A stretch of DNA of 64,000 nucleotides from Bernardetia sp. ABR2-2B. GTDB lineage: Bacteria; Bacteroidota; Bacteroidia; Cytophagales; Bernardetiaceae. Position 1 is the first letter of the stretch. Each line of letters begins with the position of its first letter. This document shows positions 44,907 through 50,606 of this stretch, in pieces. The notes under the pieces were generated by a model that was not told the origin of the DNA, ran no database searches, and saw only the letters and a list, made by a program, of their open reading frames with translations. The position numbers were made by a program, and so were the translations under genes. The stretch spans positions 5,159,001 to 5,223,000 of the forward strand of contig NZ_CP147020.1 of the NCBI RefSeq assembly GCF_037126435.1. Direction: 5' to 3'.

Positions 44907-45593
44907 ATGAAAAATAAATTTGTCTTTTTCTGTTTTTCTATCTTTTTGATAGGATTTTTTTCTTTCTTTTTAGTACACAAATCAACAGCACAGCAGCTTC
45001 GTTTTGGTGTAACTTATACCTATTTGTATTCAAAATTATTGAATCAAAATATTCAAACTTATAATTTTAGTCGTCCATTTTTGGAAAAAAAACAGCCTTT
45101 GCTTTCTCATGGTTTTAATCTTTCTGTGTCGTATCTTTTTGGCTCTTCTTCTGATTTTTCTCACGGTATAGGTTTGTCTTATTCTCGTTTTGGAAGTAGC
45201 GCAGAAAATGAAGGCTTGAACTCTACTTTCAATCAAAACTTTGCCAAATTAGGCTATATTCTTCATTATCAGAAAGATGAAAATCCTTTTTATACAGAAT
45301 TACACATTTCTGTTATTGGTGGAATGTTGGGAAGACAAATCAATGATGAAACCTTTGAATTTGATGGAGAAACAGCACGAGCTTATGGAGTTGGGGGACA
45401 TATAGGCATAAGAACAGGCTATGAATTTACGCTTAGTGATAAATTATTTTTATCTCCTTTTATAGACGTTGGTTATGCTCCTTATTTTTATTCGCCAAAT
45501 ACAGAAAGTATTCTTAATCAAACAACAGAATTAATTAGTGAAGAACAGCCTTCTCTATTTAATACTTCTTTTGGAATTATGTTGCGTAGATAA
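44907..45593 (+). CDS. Outer-membrane beta-barrel protein
   Basis: 228 residues with a signal peptide (cleavage after STAQ, about residue 29). The mature part begins QLRFGVTYTYLYSKLLNQN and alternates short amphipathic strands (LSYSRFGS, ELHISVIGG, GHIGIRTGYEF, FIDVGYAPYF), a small barrel of the porin/OmpA-like type, ending SFGIMLRR. No family can be named. It may be cotranscribed with the amine oxidase, though a pair of hairpin repeats lies between them. Confidence 0.65.
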   Translation: MKNKFVFFCFSIFLIGFFSFFLVHKSTAQQLRFGVTYTYLYSKLLNQNIQTYNFSRPFLEKKQPLLSHGFNLSVSYLFGSSSDFSHGIGLSYSRFGSSAENEGLNSTFNQNFAKLGYILHYQKDENPFYTELHISVIGGMLGRQINDETFEFDGETARAYGVGGHIGIRTGYEFTLSDKLFLSPFIDVGYAPYFYSPNTESILNQTTELISEEQPSLFNTSFGIMLRR

Positions 45594-45605
45594 TTTTCTA
45601 TTTGG

Positions 45606-45634
45606 CCTCGTTTACGGCGAAGTCTCCACGACGG
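45606..45634 (+). repeat. Hairpin repeat copy C
   Basis: CCTCGTTTACGGCGAAGTCTCCACGACGG, a diverged relative of copies A and B, placed right after the barrel gene. Confidence 0.5.
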
Positions 45635-45643
45635 TTTAATTGT

Positions 45644-45678
45644 AACTGAAAGTCTATTTTTAGACTTTCAGTTTTTTA
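45644..45678 (+). terminator. Terminator after the barrel gene
   Basis: AACTGAAAGTCTA pairs perfectly with TAGACTTTCAGTT (45661-45673), followed by TTTT. Confidence 0.8.
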
Positions 45679-45730
45679 TTTTTAAATAATAACTAAGTAT
45701 TTAGTTGAACGGCTTGTTTTTTTAGTTTTA
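45672..45730 (+). repeat. 59-bp direct repeat, left copy (R1)
   Basis: 52 of 59 bases equal 48445-48503. It contains a perfect AACTAA-N4-TTAGTT site and a CTTG -33-like element, but the position matching the -7 box has CGTTTTTG in place of TATGTTTG, so the promoter part appears dead. Confidence 0.8.
45691..45706. promoter_or_regulatory. Orphan BlaI-like operator
   Basis: AACTAA-GTAT-TTAGTT with perfect 6-bp arms, the same pattern as the two sites at the blaI-like promoter. Confidence 0.5.
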
Positions 45731-45785
45731 AACCTTCGTTTTTGATTTCTTTTGTCGATTCCAAGTCAATGTTCTTTTAAATAAT

Positions 45786-46667
45786 TTATTTTTCAAAAAG
45801 CTCTTGAATAGTTTTATCTTCTATGATTTCTCTAATTGCATTTTGCTTTTCAAATTTACTTTTAAAAGGCTGTTCAGAATAAAGTTCTCTATATTTTTCA
45901 TCAATAAAATTTTCTATTTGGTTTGAAAAAGGTTCAATAAAATCTTTGAAATTACCTTCTTCTTGAAGATTAAAACTTAACTTTCCTTTCTGTAAAATGC
46001 CATTTTCTAAAGCAAATTTAGTTTGTTTTCTACAACGACAGGGATTATTTTTATTGACTAAGCCACATTTATTGTTCAAAAAATTATGTAAATCTTTTTT
46101 GGCTCTACTTAATTTTATCCGAAAATTACCTGTACTGACATTCAATAATTCAGCTCCTAAGTTGTGGTCAGCCTGAAAAACTTCTCCCAAAATATAAACT
46201 AAACGCTGTTCTCTACTCAAACAGAGTAGCATTCCTGCCATACATTGTAATTTCATTTCTTGGATATACTCTGAATATTCCTCCTGTTCTAGCTCGTTCA
46301 TATCTGATTCTCTTTCGATAGCATTTTCAAGTGTTTTTTCAAAAAAGTCAAAAGAGGAAACCATCTTTTCTTTCTTTGTTTTTTGAGTTTGTAAAAAGTG
46401 ATTAAAAGTAATTCGATAAATCCACGTTCTGAAATTACTTTCTCTTTTGAATTTTGATAAATTAGTAATTACTTTAACCAATACCTCTTGTGTAATATCC
46501 CACGCATCGTTTGGGTCATGTACCATTTTCCATGCAACATTGTAAATATAAATTTGATGCCTTTTTATGAGTTGATTAAGGGCTTTTTTATTTCCTGCAA
46601 TGCTTTGGTCAAGAAGCTCGTTATCTGTTTGGTCAGAATAGTTTTGAAGTTGAAAAGGATTTTCCAT
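45786..46667 (-). CDS. ECF-like sigma factor with Cys-rich insert
   Basis: 293 residues, longer than the usual 170-200 of ECF sigma factors. Region 2 is clear (NQLIKRHQIYIYNVAWKMV ... DAWDITQEVLVKVITNLSKF ... SNFRTWIYRITFNHFLQ, about residues 30-93). Region 4 (about 145-195) has REQRLVYILGEVFQADHNLGAELLNVSTGNFRIKLSRAKKDL. A Cys cluster follows, CGLVNKNNPCRCRKQ (Cys201, Cys210, Cys212), then about 80 residues of C-terminal extension (DFIEPFSNQIENF ... QPFKSKFEKQ). No anti-sigma factor is seen beside it; the extra domain may replace it. Nearby genes carry the shared two-part promoter described under 47768 and 48360, so this sigma factor is the prime candidate to read it. Confidence 0.88.
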   Translation of the reverse strand: MENPFQLQNYSDQTDNELLDQSIAGNKKALNQLIKRHQIYIYNVAWKMVHDPNDAWDITQEVLVKVITNLSKFKRESNFRTWIYRITFNHFLQTQKTKKEKMVSSFDFFEKTLENAIERESDMNELEQEEYSEYIQEMKLQCMAGMLLCLSREQRLVYILGEVFQADHNLGAELLNVSTGNFRIKLSRAKKDLHNFLNNKCGLVNKNNPCRCRKQTKFALENGILQKGKLSFNLQEEGNFKDFIEPFSNQIENFIDEKYRELYSEQPFKSKFEKQNAIREIIEDKTIQELFEK

Positions 46668-46690
46668 CGTATCTGTATGTATGTTATAAT

Positions 46691-46728
46691 AAAACTCTAA
46701 GAAAAATATTTTTTTCTTAGAGTTTTTA
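46691..46728 (-). terminator. Terminator between the SRPBCC gene and the sigma factor gene
   Basis: AAAACTCTAAGAAAAA pairs with TTTTTCTTAGAGTTTT. It separates the upstream unit from the sigma factor gene, whose ATG lies 24 bases further on. Confidence 0.7.
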
Positions 46729-46752
46729 AAAATTTTGATTTGAAAGTATGAC

Positions 46753-47292
46753 TTAGCTTTTAGAAGTAGTAATGTTTATGTTAGTTAGCATTTCAGTAAT
46801 AGCTGCATTCATAAAACCTGCTAACTTTTCTTTACTCATATTTGGGTTTTCTACATAATCGTAGCTTGTCGTCCAAACAATTAAAGATTGAGTTTTGCCT
46901 AAAGGAATTACTCTAAATGAGTTGTCCATATTCTTCACAGGAATTGAACCTTCTGTAAGGGCATAACGATAATACATTTCTTTTTTATTGAAGTGTGTTA
47001 CTTTCTCTTTGTAGAAGCTTTTTTGGTCTGGCGAAGTACAGGTTCTTTCACAACCTTCTCCAATTTTGCCCTTTATCTTTACACTATGTAGAAAGTTAGG
47101 TGTAAGCTCTGCCAAATTATCAAATTGAGCCACTACTTTCCAAGTTTCTTTTGCCGAAGCATCTACTACTTGTGTTTTTACCAAAACTGGGTTAGGATAT
47201 TCATTTTTTGGATTTTTTTGTTGAAATCCGAAACTAAATAAAAAGAATGAAAGAACTAAAAAGACGATTGATTTTTGAACTGAAAAATTCAT
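46753..47292 (-). CDS. Exported SRPBCC family protein
   Basis: 179 residues with an N-terminal signal or anchor (KSIVFLVLSFFLFSFGFQ). The mature domain is a START-like SRPBCC fold: VVDASAKETWKVVAQFDNLAELTPNF at the first helix-loop, GCERTCTSPDQ, EKVTHFNKKEMYYRYALTEG and a C-terminal helix. SRPBCC folds bind small hydrophobic ligands in a deep cavity. It is paralogous to 47809-48318: both show RTC[ST]S and [VI]T.F..K.M.Y.Y. It is probably cotranscribed with the NTF2-like gene 63 bases upstream. Confidence 0.8.
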   Translation of the reverse strand: MNFSVQKSIVFLVLSFFLFSFGFQQKNPKNEYPNPVLVKTQVVDASAKETWKVVAQFDNLAELTPNFLHSVKIKGKIGEGCERTCTSPDQKSFYKEKVTHFNKKEMYYRYALTEGSIPVKNMDNSFRVIPLGKTQSLIVWTTSYDYVENPNMSKEKLAGFMNAAITEMLTNINITTSKS

Positions 47293-47355
47293 AGTTTTAC
47301 TATTTTTTTAATGAAATAATTGAATTGAATAAGAAGAAATTGCTAAAAGTAAGAA

Positions 47356-47712
47356 TCAATAAAAGAACTGTTCGCTCACAATTTTATCATCTTCTACTTT
47401 ATAAATGACGAGTTCGGATAATTGCATTCTGTTTCCATCTTGTAGTGTAGCATCAAAGCTCATTCCTAGAGAAATATAATTTCCTGCTACAATTATCTTT
47501 TCATCTATTTCTCGCTTGTGTAGTTCTTTGATATTTCCACCAAACATTTTTGCTTTTTCTTTTACTTGTTCTATACCTTTTGCGTGAGACATAGGAGGAA
47601 AATTAGGCTCAATAGATTCTATAGAATCTGAAAAAAGAGTATTATGAATTGTATCCATATCCATAGCGATAATCGCTGTATGAAGTTTTTGAGCAATTTG
47701 ATTGACTGACAT
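47356..47712 (-). CDS. NTF2-like/SnoaL-fold protein
   Basis: 118 residues, the usual size for a cone-shaped NTF2-like fold: an N-terminal helical pair (VNQIAQKLHTAIIAMDMDTIHNTLFSDS), SHAKGIEQVKEKAKMF, and a C-terminal curved sheet (GNRMQLSELVIYKVEDDKIVSEQFFY). Such proteins bind or isomerise small lipids or act as steroid-isomerase-like enzymes; no catalytic residue set is evident here. The upstream 32-bp promoter motif (47768-47799) lies 55 bases before the ATG. Confidence 0.75.
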   Translation of the reverse strand: MSVNQIAQKLHTAIIAMDMDTIHNTLFSDSIESIEPNFPPMSHAKGIEQVKEKAKMFGGNIKELHKREIDEKIIVAGNYISLGMSFDATLQDGNRMQLSELVIYKVEDDKIVSEQFFY

Positions 47713-47767
47713 AATTTTTGAAGTTTAAATTTTTTAATTAAAATGAAATAGTTTGTGTTCTCACAAC

Positions 47768-47799
47768 TTAGAGTAAGAAATAAGTAAGGTGTTACAACT
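47768..47799 (-). promoter_or_regulatory. ECF-type promoter of the NTF2-SRPBCC unit (copy 2 of shared motif)
   Basis: On the minus strand AGTTGTAACAC, 8 bases, TTTCTTACTCTAA. It matches the site at 48360-48391 in 11/11 (left part) and 12/13 (right part), with equal spacing; only the spacer differs. The TGTAAC core resembles the AAC-containing -35 elements of ECF sigma factors. Confidence 0.65.
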
Positions 47800-47808
47800 T
47801 CTACCTTT

Positions 47809-48318
47809 TTATTTTTTCTTCGCTTTTTGTTTGTTCCACTTTTCTACTGATTTTATTTTGCGAGGATGTGGGTTTCCTGTTTCTACATAGTATTTGAGGT
47901 CTTCCATAAGTAGGGTTGTGTCTTTATTCATTTTAGGCTTTATCATCCAGCCCATCAAAAGTCCCATAACTGGATTCATTTTCATCTTTAAGTTCATTGT
48001 AACTAAAGAAGTATTTTCTCCTTTTGATTTGACATTCCAAACATTCCCCCCTTCCTTAAACATAGCAGACAAACCATCTGCTTTATAGGCGTACTGCATG
48101 TTTTTCTCATCAAATTCAGTAATCATTTCTTGCACATCTCCGTAAGAAGAACTACAAGTGCGCCCTGCTACTTTTCCAGCATGGTCTTTCCTTGCTGCTG
48201 ATTCTGGTATTATAGTCGCCCACTTTCCAACATTCTCATAATCATTAGCAAGAATGTTCCAAACTTCCTTAGCAGAAGCATTTATTTCTATTTGTTTTTG
48301 AATTGCAATATTTGACAT
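47809..48318 (-). CDS. Cytoplasmic SRPBCC family protein
   Basis: 169 residues, no signal peptide. SRPBCC fold: IEINASAKEVWNILANDYENVGKWATI, GRTCSSSYGD, MITEFDEKNMQYAYKADG, NVWNVKSKGENTSLVTMNLKMKMNP and the helix LMGWMIKPKMNKDTTLLMEDL, which places a family-typical C-terminal helix. The last 15 residues are basic. Ligand unknown. It is paralogous to the exported protein at 46753-47292. A 32-bp ECF-type promoter motif lies 41 bases before the ATG. Confidence 0.82.
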   Translation of the reverse strand: MSNIAIQKQIEINASAKEVWNILANDYENVGKWATIIPESAARKDHAGKVAGRTCSSSYGDVQEMITEFDEKNMQYAYKADGLSAMFKEGGNVWNVKSKGENTSLVTMNLKMKMNPVMGLLMGWMIKPKMNKDTTLLMEDLKYYVETGNPHPRKIKSVEKWNKQKAKKK

Positions 48319-48359
48319 AATTATTTTTGATTTAAAGGTTTTCTAAAACGATTTACCCT

Positions 48360-48391
48360 TTAGAGCAAGAAAATATCTATGTGTTACAACT
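48360..48391 (-). promoter_or_regulatory. ECF-type promoter of the SRPBCC gene (copy 1 of shared motif)
   Basis: On the minus strand AGTTGTAACAC, 8 bases, TTTCTTGCTCTAA. The gene starts 41 bases later. See the site at 47768-47799. Confidence 0.65.
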
Positions 48392-48444
48392 CAATTTGAT
48401 TTTTTTCTAAAAAAAGATAGAATCAGTCACTTTAATGGATAGTA

Positions 48445-48503
48445 TTTTTTATTTTTAAACAATAACTAAAGATATAGTTGAATAACTTGTTTTTTTAGTT
48501 TTA
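48445..48503 (+). repeat. 59-bp direct repeat, right copy (R2)
   Basis: 88% identical to 45672-45730 in the same orientation. This copy is part of a working promoter: it holds the upstream AACTAA-type site and the -33 element of the blaI-like gene. Confidence 0.8.
48464..48479. promoter_or_regulatory. Candidate BlaI operator, upstream site
   Basis: AACTAA-AGAT-ATAGTT: arms match in 5 of 6 positions. It lies just upstream of the -33 element. Confidence 0.5.
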
Positions 48504-48517
48504 TTGCTGTATGTTTG
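48488..48517 (+). promoter_or_regulatory. Promoter of the blaI-like gene
   Basis: TTG at 48488-48490, 19 bases, TATGTTTG at 48510-48517, a standard -33/-7 pair; the leader to ATG 48595 is about 70 bases. Confidence 0.7.
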
Positions 48518-48521
48518 TATC

Positions 48522-48537
48522 AACTAAATAGTTAGTT
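48522..48537. promoter_or_regulatory. Candidate BlaI operator at the transcript start
   Basis: AACTAA-ATAG-TTAGTT with perfect 6-bp arms, overlapping the expected transcription start, where repressor binding would block initiation. Confidence 0.55.
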
Positions 48538-48594
48538 AGTAAGCTAATTTAATTTCTAATTCCCCATACCTAATTCCCATTTCCTAAAAAAATT

Positions 48595-48972
48595 ATGCAA
48601 GAACTCACAAAAGCCGAAGAAAAAATTATGCAACTTCTTTGGGATGCCGAAAAAGCATTTGTAAAAGAATTAATTGAAAAAATTGAAGGTAAAAAGCCAA
48701 GTTATACCACCGTTTCGACGATTATCAGAATATTAGAAACTAAAAAGTTTGTCGGACACAAAGCCTACGGAAATACGCATCAGTATTTTCCATTGATAAG
48801 TAGAGAAGAATATGCAAAATTTGCTACTAGAAGCGTACTAGATAGGTATTTTGATGGTTCGTTCAAAAAGCTAGTTTCATTTTTTGCAAAAAAAGAAGAA
48901 ATAGATATTGACGAGCTAGATGACATCATGAAAATGATGGAAAAAGAAGAGAAGAAAAATGATAAAAAGTGA
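48595..48972 (+). CDS. BlaI/MecI/CopY family repressor
   Basis: 125 residues, the family norm. The N-terminal winged helix reads LTKAEEKIMQLLWDAEKAFVKELIEKI, KPSYTTVSTIIRILETKKFVGHKAYG; the C-terminal helices for dimerisation follow (LVSFFAKKEEIDIDELDDI). It would bind the paired AACTAA-N4-TTAGTT sites at its own promoter and be cut by the M56 protease encoded 47 bases downstream. Confidence 0.92.
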   Translation: MQELTKAEEKIMQLLWDAEKAFVKELIEKIEGKKPSYTTVSTIIRILETKKFVGHKAYGNTHQYFPLISREEYAKFATRSVLDRYFDGSFKKLVSFFAKKEEIDIDELDDIMKMMEKEEKKNDKK

Positions 48973-49019
48973 TTGAATTTAATTAATCACTAATCACTTA
49001 CCATTAATCACCATTAAAA

Positions 49020-50606
49020 ATGAAACTCCTTTTTTTTGATTATTTATTGCAATGTAGCCTGTTTTTGGTCTTGCTTTATATTCCTTATTTTCTGTTTTTA
49101 AAAAATGAAACTTTCTTTAATCTGAATAGAAAATACTTGGTTACTGCGTTGTTACTGACGCTTATTTTACCTTTTTTTCCACTCAATATTTCTAGTTTTT
49201 TTGAAATATTCTTTCAAAAATCTACTGCTGTAACCGTTCCCGAAATTGATATTTTTCTGTTTTATGGAGATGCAATCAATAACGCCACAACAGAAACCAC
49301 CAAAAGTGTTTTTTCAGAGCCTTCTACTTGGATTTTTCTAATTTATACTCTAGGAATTACAGTTATTTTTATTAGAATTTTGTTAGGCTTATCAATGATT
49401 TTGAAATTATATTTCAGAGGACAAAAAACTCAAAAAAAGCATTTTATACTCATAGAAACCAAATCAGAAACCGAACCTTTTTCTTTCTTTAATTGGGTTT
49501 TTATTTCTGCTACTAATGATTTTTCAGAGTCAGAACAAACTGAAATTATTGCTCACGAAAAGGCACATGTCAGACAAAAACACGCCTTAGATTTGCTCTT
49601 GATTGAGTTTTTGGGGCTTCTATTGTGGTTCAACCCTCTTATTTATTTCTATAAAAAGGCATTGAGAGATACACACGAATATTTAGCTGACAAAGAAACC
49701 ATCACTCATTTTTCTAATAAAAAACAGTATCTCAACTTACTTATCAATCAACATTTTGTGGGTAGAAACCTGCCTTTTGTTACCAAATTTCATCACTATT
49801 CATTACTTAAAAAACGTGTTATTATGATTACTAAATCGCCTTCTCGTGGGATTGCAAAGCTCAAAATTATGTTTGCCGTTCCTGCTCTTTTCTTGTGTGT
49901 TTTTATGACCAGTTGTTTGAAAGAATATGTTGAAATTTCGGAGCGTTCAGAAGTTTCTAGCAATGACTTTGCAGGGGCTTTTCCTAAAGATTATGAAATA
50001 GGAAAGTCGTATAAAATTCGTTCTACAACTACTATGGAATTGGATTTAGAAAAAAATAATGATTATATGTTACGTCTGTTTCCTGCTGAAGATTTTGAAG
50101 GTGTAGAAATCAAAATGTTTGATGAAAAAGGAGAACAAATCGTAACAAATTATATAGAAAAAATGGATAAGTATTTTAGAGGTTTTACTTTCCGAAATAC
50201 CACAACTACAAAATATAGACTAGAAATTACAGTTCCTGATGGAAAAAAGAATACTTCTTTAGCTATGGCTTCTCGTAAGTTTGAAGAAAGTGAAATTGTG
50301 AAACCAAAAAAAGATAAAGAAGGCTATACAAAAGTAAAAACGTATAGCTTAGATAAAACTGATGCCAAATCTTATGAATATACAGTTATTTTTTCGGAAG
50401 GCACAGAGTACAAAGTATCTTTAGGGGATAAGAATATGAAATTTCAATTAGTCAATGAAGCAAGGGATAAAGTTTTGGTGGAATTTACCTCTACTGAAAA
50501 CGAAAAATACAAGACTTTCAAAATTGATGAAACAGCAGTTTATTACCTTAAAATGGAAAAAGAAGATACAGAAACCAAAAATGCTGAATTGTCTTTCAAA
50601 CGATAA
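49020..50606 (+). CDS. M56 (BlaR1-type) membrane metalloprotease
   Basis: 528 residues. Four to five membrane helices surround the zinc site HEKAHVRQKH (His179, Glu180, His183) with the downstream ligand region DTHEYLADKE. A final helix (KIMFAVPALFLCVFMTSC) leads to a 220-residue outer domain (about 300-528) with no penicillin-binding motif; it looks beta-rich (YKIRSTTTMELDLEKN, FRGFTFRNTTTTKYRLE). In this Bacteroidota variant the outer part replaces the beta-lactam sensor of BlaR1, so the inducer is unknown. The protease should cleave the BlaI-like repressor. Confidence 0.9.
   Translation: MKLLFFDYLLQCSLFLVLLYIPYFLFLKNETFFNLNRKYLVTALLLTLILPFFPLNISSFFEIFFQKSTAVTVPEIDIFLFYGDAINNATTETTKSVFSEPSTWIFLIYTLGITVIFIRILLGLSMILKLYFRGQKTQKKHFILIETKSETEPFSFFNWVFISATNDFSESEQTEIIAHEKAHVRQKHALDLLLIEFLGLLLWFNPLIYFYKKALRDTHEYLADKETITHFSNKKQYLNLLINQHFVGRNLPFVTKFHHYSLLKKRVIMITKSPSRGIAKLKIMFAVPALFLCVFMTSCLKEYVEISERSEVSSNDFAGAFPKDYEIGKSYKIRSTTTMELDLEKNNDYMLRLFPAEDFEGVEIKMFDEKGEQIVTNYIEKMDKYFRGFTFRNTTTTKYRLEITVPDGKKNTSLAMASRKFEESEIVKPKKDKEGYTKVKTYSLDKTDAKSYEYTVIFSEGTEYKVSLGDKNMKFQLVNEARDKVLVEFTSTENEKYKTFKIDETAVYYLKMEKEDTETKNAELSFKR

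Follow-up and report, generated by a model that had tools for sequence, protein, structure and literature searches.

A candidate ECF sigma factor regulon of SRPBCC and SnoaL/NTF2-like genes in Bernardetia sp. ABR2-2B whose promoter covaries with the sigma recognition helix

The closest known system to the one described here is ECF41, a group of extracytoplasmic function (ECF) sigma factors (Ecf41Bli, Ecf41Rsp, SigJ) that control a local operon from TGTCACA-n16-CGTC, have no anti-sigma factor and carry a regulatory C-terminal extension (PMC3426412). CorE and CorE2 (former ECF44, now ECF238) are described as metal-responsive, with a Cys-rich domain (PMC3107203, PMC8999054); the 38-residue tail of CorE contains C181-x2-C184-x7-C192-x-C194, and its linker a CXC motif (PMC3107203, PMC8999054). 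A Cys-rich C-terminal extension is also shared by groups ECF287 and ECF288 (PMC8999054). Here we analyze a four-gene locus in a 64,000-nucleotide stretch of Bernardetia sp. ABR2-2B (contig NZ_CP147020.1, positions 5,159,001 to 5,223,000; hereafter the window), in which three genes for small proteins, P0004, P0003 and P0002, are followed in order of transcription on the minus strand by the gene for an ECF sigma factor, P0001. We consider it highly likely that these genes form a self-contained ECF sigma regulon, in which the local sigma factor would drive P0004 and P0003-P0002 from two copies of one promoter motif.

The two putative promoters match AGTTGTAACAC-N8-TTTCTTRCTCTAA with 0 mismatches at 47768-47799 and 48360-48391 on the minus strand, upstream of minus-strand genes exactly as a first-pass annotation of the sequence had placed them, whereas 0.01 matches per window are expected by chance even with up to three mismatches (100 shuffles). 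Its observation that the blocks are shared while the spacers differ also holds, with 23 of 24 block positions and 25 of 32 positions overall identical, and with six of the seven differences falling in the 8-base spacer and one in the blocks. The distances from the 5’ end of the site to the ATG are 73 and 87 bases. When we scanned the host genome (5,376,891 bases in four contigs, 99.5% complete), as had been proposed, we found no third copy of the full 32-base motif with up to three mismatches and no further mismatch-free match to TTGTAACAC-N14..18-TCTAA beyond the two sites. The 19-letter core, again allowing up to three mismatches, gave the two sites exactly and 17 weaker matches, as compared to 17 for the reversed control; the weaker match most like the family motif (462869, two mismatches), the one of the 17 that was looked at, lies antisense inside a gene.

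By its profile matches P0001 is an ECF (group 4) sigma factor, with region 2 scoring 46.7 bits against PF04542 (over the cut-off), the sigma scoring 71.5 bits against NCBIfam TIGR02937 (cut-off 42.9), and region 4 scoring 22.2 bits against PF08281 (under the cut-off of 25.7). Of 98 genomes taken from the genus up to the order, 10 had relatives at E 1e-20 or better, and of 395 genomes in a phylum sample 11 had them at E 1e-40, its own genome being counted in both; within its own family one of 10 other genomes (G002) encodes a relative, 48% identical and with different neighbors. For comparative work, a scan of named genome contigs supplied the best 80 of 576 sigma relatives, which with nine others (the window and L016-L023) made 89 loci. 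We sorted these into 48 family loci, defined by the Cys signature CG-x-C-x-C in frame plus L078, 36 other-ECF controls, and five doubtful loci outside both counts (L074, L076, L082, L084, L085). L078 has a broken sigma frame and entered the site and neighbor counts but not the residue analysis. L024 (G062), outside the family counts, has a family sigma that is divided between two reading frames and apparently broken, with an intact copy (L019) elsewhere in the same genome. By record title, family members are largely Bacteroidota, others including metagenome-assembled genomes (MAGs) of Chloroflexi, Ignavibacteria, Spirochaetes, Desulfobacteraceae, Phycisphaerales and Nitrospinota; binning errors are possible.

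The promoter recurs with the sigma factor in these relatives. A pattern lettered from the window's two sites found 13 sites in 10 of 47 other family loci, with none on the opposite strand, none in the 36 controls and a mean of 0.02 in Markov resamples. Upstream regions read by eye contained TGTCACAC and TC[TAC]AA variants, and a widened, descriptive pattern, TGT[A/C]ACA–N–TC[T/C/A]AA, matched 41 same-strand sites in 29 of 48 family loci, with two opposite-strand matches and none in 36 controls. The 37 sites of common spacing, whose remaining block letters the pattern fixes, have 26 A and 11 C at base 4, and 22 T, 8 C and 7 A directly after TC. Immediately before TC stand 24 A, 11 G and 2 C, and three bases before it there is a G in 28 of the 37; ACA is followed by C (32) or G (5).

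The -35 element in turn varies with the recognition helix of the sigma factor. Across 41 labelled loci of the 47 aligned family members, window included (28 labelled by a strict site, 10 by a looser TGTNACA search and 3 by TTTACA), residue 184 follows the -33 base, being I or V with A, Q or K with C, and M with T, in 41/41. Residue 184 alone separates A from C among the 28 strictly labelled loci, is the only one of 293 columns that is perfect for 38/38 A/C loci (187 being second), and is matched by no other column in separating all 41. At ten of the loci without a strict site, TGTCACA was found within 110 bases of gene starts and residue 184 is Q or K in 10/10; at L056, a TGTTACA 16 bases before a start was set aside for TGTCACA. 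On a FastTree tree of the 38 A/C loci, parsimony requires five base changes, compared to a mean of 12.7 and a minimum of 6 for 1000 shuffles of the labels. M184 occurs in three loci, namely L043, with TTTACA-type sites seen by eye, and L017 (the window's own genus) and L049, whose TTTACA-type sites were found after L043 had suggested them; one of L017's two sites lies 164 bases from the sigma start and the other 44 before the next gene. K188, in place of R, is exclusive to these three loci, whose -35 G is T. L017 and L049 are 80% identical, and because of these and other close pairs the independent cases number fewer than 41.

We then applied the residue 184 rule, fixed beforehand, to ten newly fetched loci, nine of which had readable sigmas. 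Six strict sites and one loose site were present, all matching the rule. L125 encodes a protein identical to that of L046 and is thus not an independent case; identity between L127 and L056 is 78%, and between L128 and L129 it is 82%. Residues 183-188 of the window sigma align, with a tag offset allowed for, to R171-S172-R173-I174-F175-R176 of E. coli sigmaE, and in sigmaE/SigW structures S172, F175 and R176 are described as contacting the -34, -33 and -35 positions among others (PMC6713349), so that the covarying residues are those expected to read bases. The strong covariation, as judged from aligned sequences, ties I184 to A, and not to C or T, as base 4 of TGTAAC. Rewiring of ECF specificity has been worked on before, and pairing helix residues with promoter bases is therefore not in itself a new method. 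Sigma factor and promoter signal appear to have evolved together, and the neighboring sigma very probably reads this promoter. Two proposals of the first-pass annotation, that the Cys-cluster sigma reads the motif and that it controls both SRPBCC genes and the NTF2-like gene, thus gain support from the conservation of the sigma/target/promoter unit in other genomes and from the covariation of the -35 helix.

Five cysteines, at 142, 149, 201, 210 and 212, are invariant in 47/47 aligned family sigmas, window included, and present in 9/9 readable newly fetched ones; the extension of the window sigma carries CGLVNKNNPCRC. No anti-sigma partner was recognized near the window sigma, and the Pfam matches shown for 50 selected neighbor proteins of the family (25 of the 28 families found) include none. 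Membrane or redox stress was put forward in the first-pass annotation as a possible trigger; a thiol or metal signal is plausible from the invariant cysteines. The extension of about 95 residues had no sequence matches in the PDB, where the best stretches stop by profile position 194, and the best Foldseek matches of the sigma model are the sigma part of other ECFs.

The gene set is also found in other genomes. Sigma, P0004-like, P0003-like and P0002-like genes stand in a row in Polaribacter aestuariivivens (L045) and in a Cytophagales MAG (L052); L058 has the sigma with P0004-like and P0002-like genes, and L050 and L053 have an additional SRPBCC gene where P0003 would stand. Sites in L045 precede the sigma, P0004-like and P0003-like genes, a target layout equal to that of the window, in which the sigma gene comes last and has no site. 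Overall, a P0002-, P0003- or P0004-like neighbor is present at 15 of 47 family loci versus none of 36 controls. The 50 neighbor proteins profiled (37 of 39 from a listing, two of L081 about 3 kb away having been dropped, plus 13 hand-picked additions) include 21 matches to Polyketide_cyc2, five to SDR, four to YgaP-like transmembrane, three each to SnoaL_2 and ydhR, and two each to SnoaL_5, DUF4440 and ABM, counts that overlap between families and reflect the choice of neighbors. Relatives of P0004 occur in 7 of 395 class genomes, its own included, and at the six other loci no P0001 relative stands beside them within the flanks covered.

Other arrangements were seen around these loci. In another family (G301, L026:908-2010), a P0003-like gene lies beside a P0004-like gene with no P0001 relative within the flanks covered. 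A recurring protein of 190-230 residues, sharing VK[KRA]PWYA and having its own TGTAACAC site, is encoded upstream of the sigma in L019, L021, L023, L024 and L070, and by eye an inverted repeat directly precedes the site of the P0004-like gene in L042, L045, L050 and L053. Four control loci, L087 (Firmicutes MAG) and L089-L091 (Acetobacterium), have V at the 184 position and TGTAACC-type sites that fall outside the TGT[AC]ACA pattern; a shorter pattern, TGTAAC-N-TCTA[AT], matched these four and L121. Their sigmas carry a different Cys tail of their own (MRC...CKC), and TGTAACCTTT-N-GTATCTAA stands before a gene for a 143-residue protein, about 709 bases after the start of the sigma match. These ECFs are perhaps a sister family.

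Table 1. Genes and predicted elements of the locus, in window coordinates
Feature	Position	Strand	Details and basis
Predicted sigma promoter 1, before P0004	48360..48391	-	-35 block AGTTGTAACAC 48381-48391; -10 block TTTCTTGCTCTAA 48360-48372
P0004, SRPBCC (Polyketide_cyc2), 169 aa, without signal stretch	47809..48318	-	PF10604, 54.7 bits
Predicted sigma promoter 2, before P0003-P0002	47768..47799	-	-35 block AGTTGTAACAC 47789-47799; -10 block TTTCTTACTCTAA 47768-47780
P0003, NTF2/SnoaL-like, 118 aa	47356..47712	-	PF20409 SnoaL_5, 94.8 bits, full length
P0002, SRPBCC (Polyketide_cyc2), N-terminal signal-like stretch, 179 aa	46753..47292	-	PF10604, 46.3 bits (cut-off 27.4)
16-bp AU-rich hairpin between P0002 and sigma genes	46691..46726	-	RNA fold -17 kcal/mol, z -5.66
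P0001, ECF sigma factor, 293 aa	45786..46667	-	region 2 (33-92), region 4 (141-193), ~95-aa C-terminal extension
Codons of residues 183-188 (R-I-K-L-S-R), region 4 recognition helix	46104..46121	-	alignment to E. coli sigmaE and covariation

All four open reading frames are as the first-pass annotation had claimed (Table 1), the signal stretch of P0002 being judged by reading of its sequence alone. The AlphaFold2 model of P0004 has a predicted local distance difference test (pLDDT) score of 91.7, and its top Foldseek matches in the PDB include Bet v 1, PYL-type and bacterial START proteins. PF10604 has four matches in the genome at E 0.001, three of them over the cut-off, and P0002 and P0004 are two of the four. 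The hairpin before the sigma gene, a possible attenuating terminator that would set read-through into that gene, was missed by a G+C-demanding terminator scan, which was itself at background (1 versus 1.2 expected), as was a Sigma70-type promoter scan (14 versus 13.2 expected); Rfam gave nothing at gathering score within 45000-49000. Adjoining the locus at 48595-50606 is a divergent pair encoding a BlaI-type repressor (PF03965) and an M56 peptidase membrane protein (PF05569).

Several findings weigh against a self-contained regulon with a helix-encoded promoter choice. The window sigma gene has no motif copy of its own, and several relatives do have one; both window sites carry a C directly ahead of TC in the -10 block, a position filled by A or G in the 35 other sites with that spacing. 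No site was recognized in 6 of the 47 aligned family members (three of which start fewer than 300 bases from a contig end) or within 1.5 kb in 2 of the 9 new readable loci. The widened pattern was tuned on the same loci and its counts are hence descriptive, the search behind the ten loose labels could return only TGTNACA, and some family sigmas are closely related, with several pairs more than 75% identical. The controls come mostly from more distant lineages, making the absence of target-like neighbors there partly phylogenetic. In L121, an ECF that does not belong to the family, TGTAACC goes with a T in place of residue 184, and sigmaE S172 is described as touching -34, while residue 184 tracks -33. 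The AlphaFold2 model of the extension is weak (blocks with pLDDT 56-75, predicted template modelling score 0.51), so the cysteines are not shown to form one site.

Three alternatives concern what the two sites are. With the divergent BlaI-family gene (48595-48972, M56 partner) beginning 204 bases from the first site, the sites might be the operator of that repressor and not a sigma promoter; they show a -35/-10 architecture rather than a dyad, however, no BlaI-like protein occurs among 326 neighbor open reading frames of 47 family loci (phmmer, E 1e-3), and the motif covaries with the sigma's helix, on which grounds we rejected this very unlikely reading. We give still less credence to the shared sequence being a functionless relic of a duplication that copied an SRPBCC gene together with its upstream region. 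P0002 and P0004 are indeed paralogues, 29% identical over 103 residues and encoded about 0.5 kb apart, but the blocks agree while the spacers differ, the second site precedes the NTF2 gene rather than an SRPBCC gene, and at distant loci the family blocks are found ahead of different genes, SDR among them. Somewhat less remote, though still improbable, is an ECF promoter read mainly by another ECF of the genome (27 candidates at first look), which would make the local sigma redundant. Different sigma factors can have overlapping ECF promoters, and the lack of a motif copy before the window sigma gene would fit; yet the only two full sites in the genome are both beside the local sigma, it is residues 184 and 188 of this family that covary with the motif, and the sigma/target/promoter unit recurs in distant genomes.

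A fourth alternative accepts the regulon and disputes the sensor, and we accord it a substantial minority chance. Here the C-terminal cysteines would be structural, holding zinc constitutively, and activity would depend on transcription of the sigma gene or on an anti-sigma factor encoded far from it. Absolute invariance is what a structural site would predict, and the hairpin before the sigma gene fits control by transcription; in contrast, the Pfam families shown for the 50 neighbor proteins include no anti-sigma, and an extension replacing the anti-sigma recalls ECF41 and CorE.

In the self-contained regulon that we favor, the three extension cysteines and the two at the start of region 4 would probably form a metal- or thiol-based switch. 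Sequence and comparative evidence suggest that the active sigma directs RNA polymerase to TTGTAACAC-N16-TCTAA before P0004 and P0003-P0002, probably the only two transcription units of the regulon in this genome, and transcription that reads through the hairpin may supply the sigma gene. The products are predicted to be small pocket-shaped proteins of SRPBCC/Bet v 1 and SnoaL/NTF2 folds, one with a signal-like start and two without. Their most likely role is to bind or alter a hydrophobic or aromatic compound, possibly an electrophile, whose appearance would activate the sigma; this is the weakest step of the scheme. More tentatively, at a level of belief just below even, we propose that the family comprises uncharacterized one-protein ECF switches spread across phyla, in which the five cysteines directly sense a metal or thiol-reactive compound, residues 184 and 188 are the -35 code, and the SRPBCC/SnoaL effectors act in a small detoxification or lipid/aromatic response. 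The code in that proposal would pair I/V184 with A, Q/K184 with C and M184 with T, and R188 with G and K188 with T.

The locus offers a complete and testable unit of sigma factor, private promoter and targets. Two helix residues that covary with -35 bases would be a simple code with which ECF promoter choice could be predicted and tested, and the invariant cysteines suggest that the signal is sensed directly, with no anti-sigma factor involved. SRPBCC and SnoaL proteins, usually annotated by fold alone, are placed in a shared regulatory setting from which their ligand might be learned.

Our literature search returned no description of this gene set; the 2021 ECF reclassification lay outside that search and may already number the family and predict its promoter. 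TGTCAC does not occur in the available text of a Flavobacterium psychrophilum start-site paper, whose motif logos are figures outside the search. ECF248, considered from its model organism, was dropped, the neighbors described in the text available being glycosyltransferases, and EcfF/EcfQ, looked at for TGTAAC, led to text that, as far as available, is not about this family.

Set against ECF41, the family shares the 16-base distance to the -10 block, the lack of an anti-sigma, a C-terminal sigma extension and a predicted local target operon, often with the sigma gene and with small enzyme-like targets including oxidoreductases. The window promoter equals the ECF41 consensus in spacing and in TGT-ACA and differs in base 4 and in the -10 block, which continues TC[TAC]AA here, unlike CGTC; relatives with Q/K184 have TGTCACA, as ECF41 does, and in this family the -35 element varies as A/C/T with residue 184. 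Also unlike ECF41, the extension has invariant cysteines and no SnoaL domain (no SnoaL family match in the sigma at E 0.01), and the chosen targets are mainly SRPBCC and free-standing SnoaL proteins, not COE genes. The strings WLPEP, NPDKL and DGGGR, which we take to be ECF41 motifs, are absent from the window sigma. With CorE, the family shares the lack of an anti-sigma, a small regulon and a Cys-bearing C-terminal extension ending C-x7/8-C-x-C. It differs in having three cysteines after region 4, C201-x8-C210-x-C212 in a tail of about 95 residues, instead of the four of C-x2-C-x7-C-x-C, in having C142-x6-C149 at region 4 instead of the linker CXC (about 85% of ECF238 likewise lack CXC; PMC8999054), and in targets other than the copper genes described for CorE. 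Because these defining features of ECF41 and CorE fail (no SnoaL domain; another Cys pattern, no CXC), we file the family, on its sequence features, as a variant of the stand-alone ECF paradigm and a member of neither group. By analogy, it fits the logic of ECF41 with a cysteine extension that is nearer to CorE in idea.

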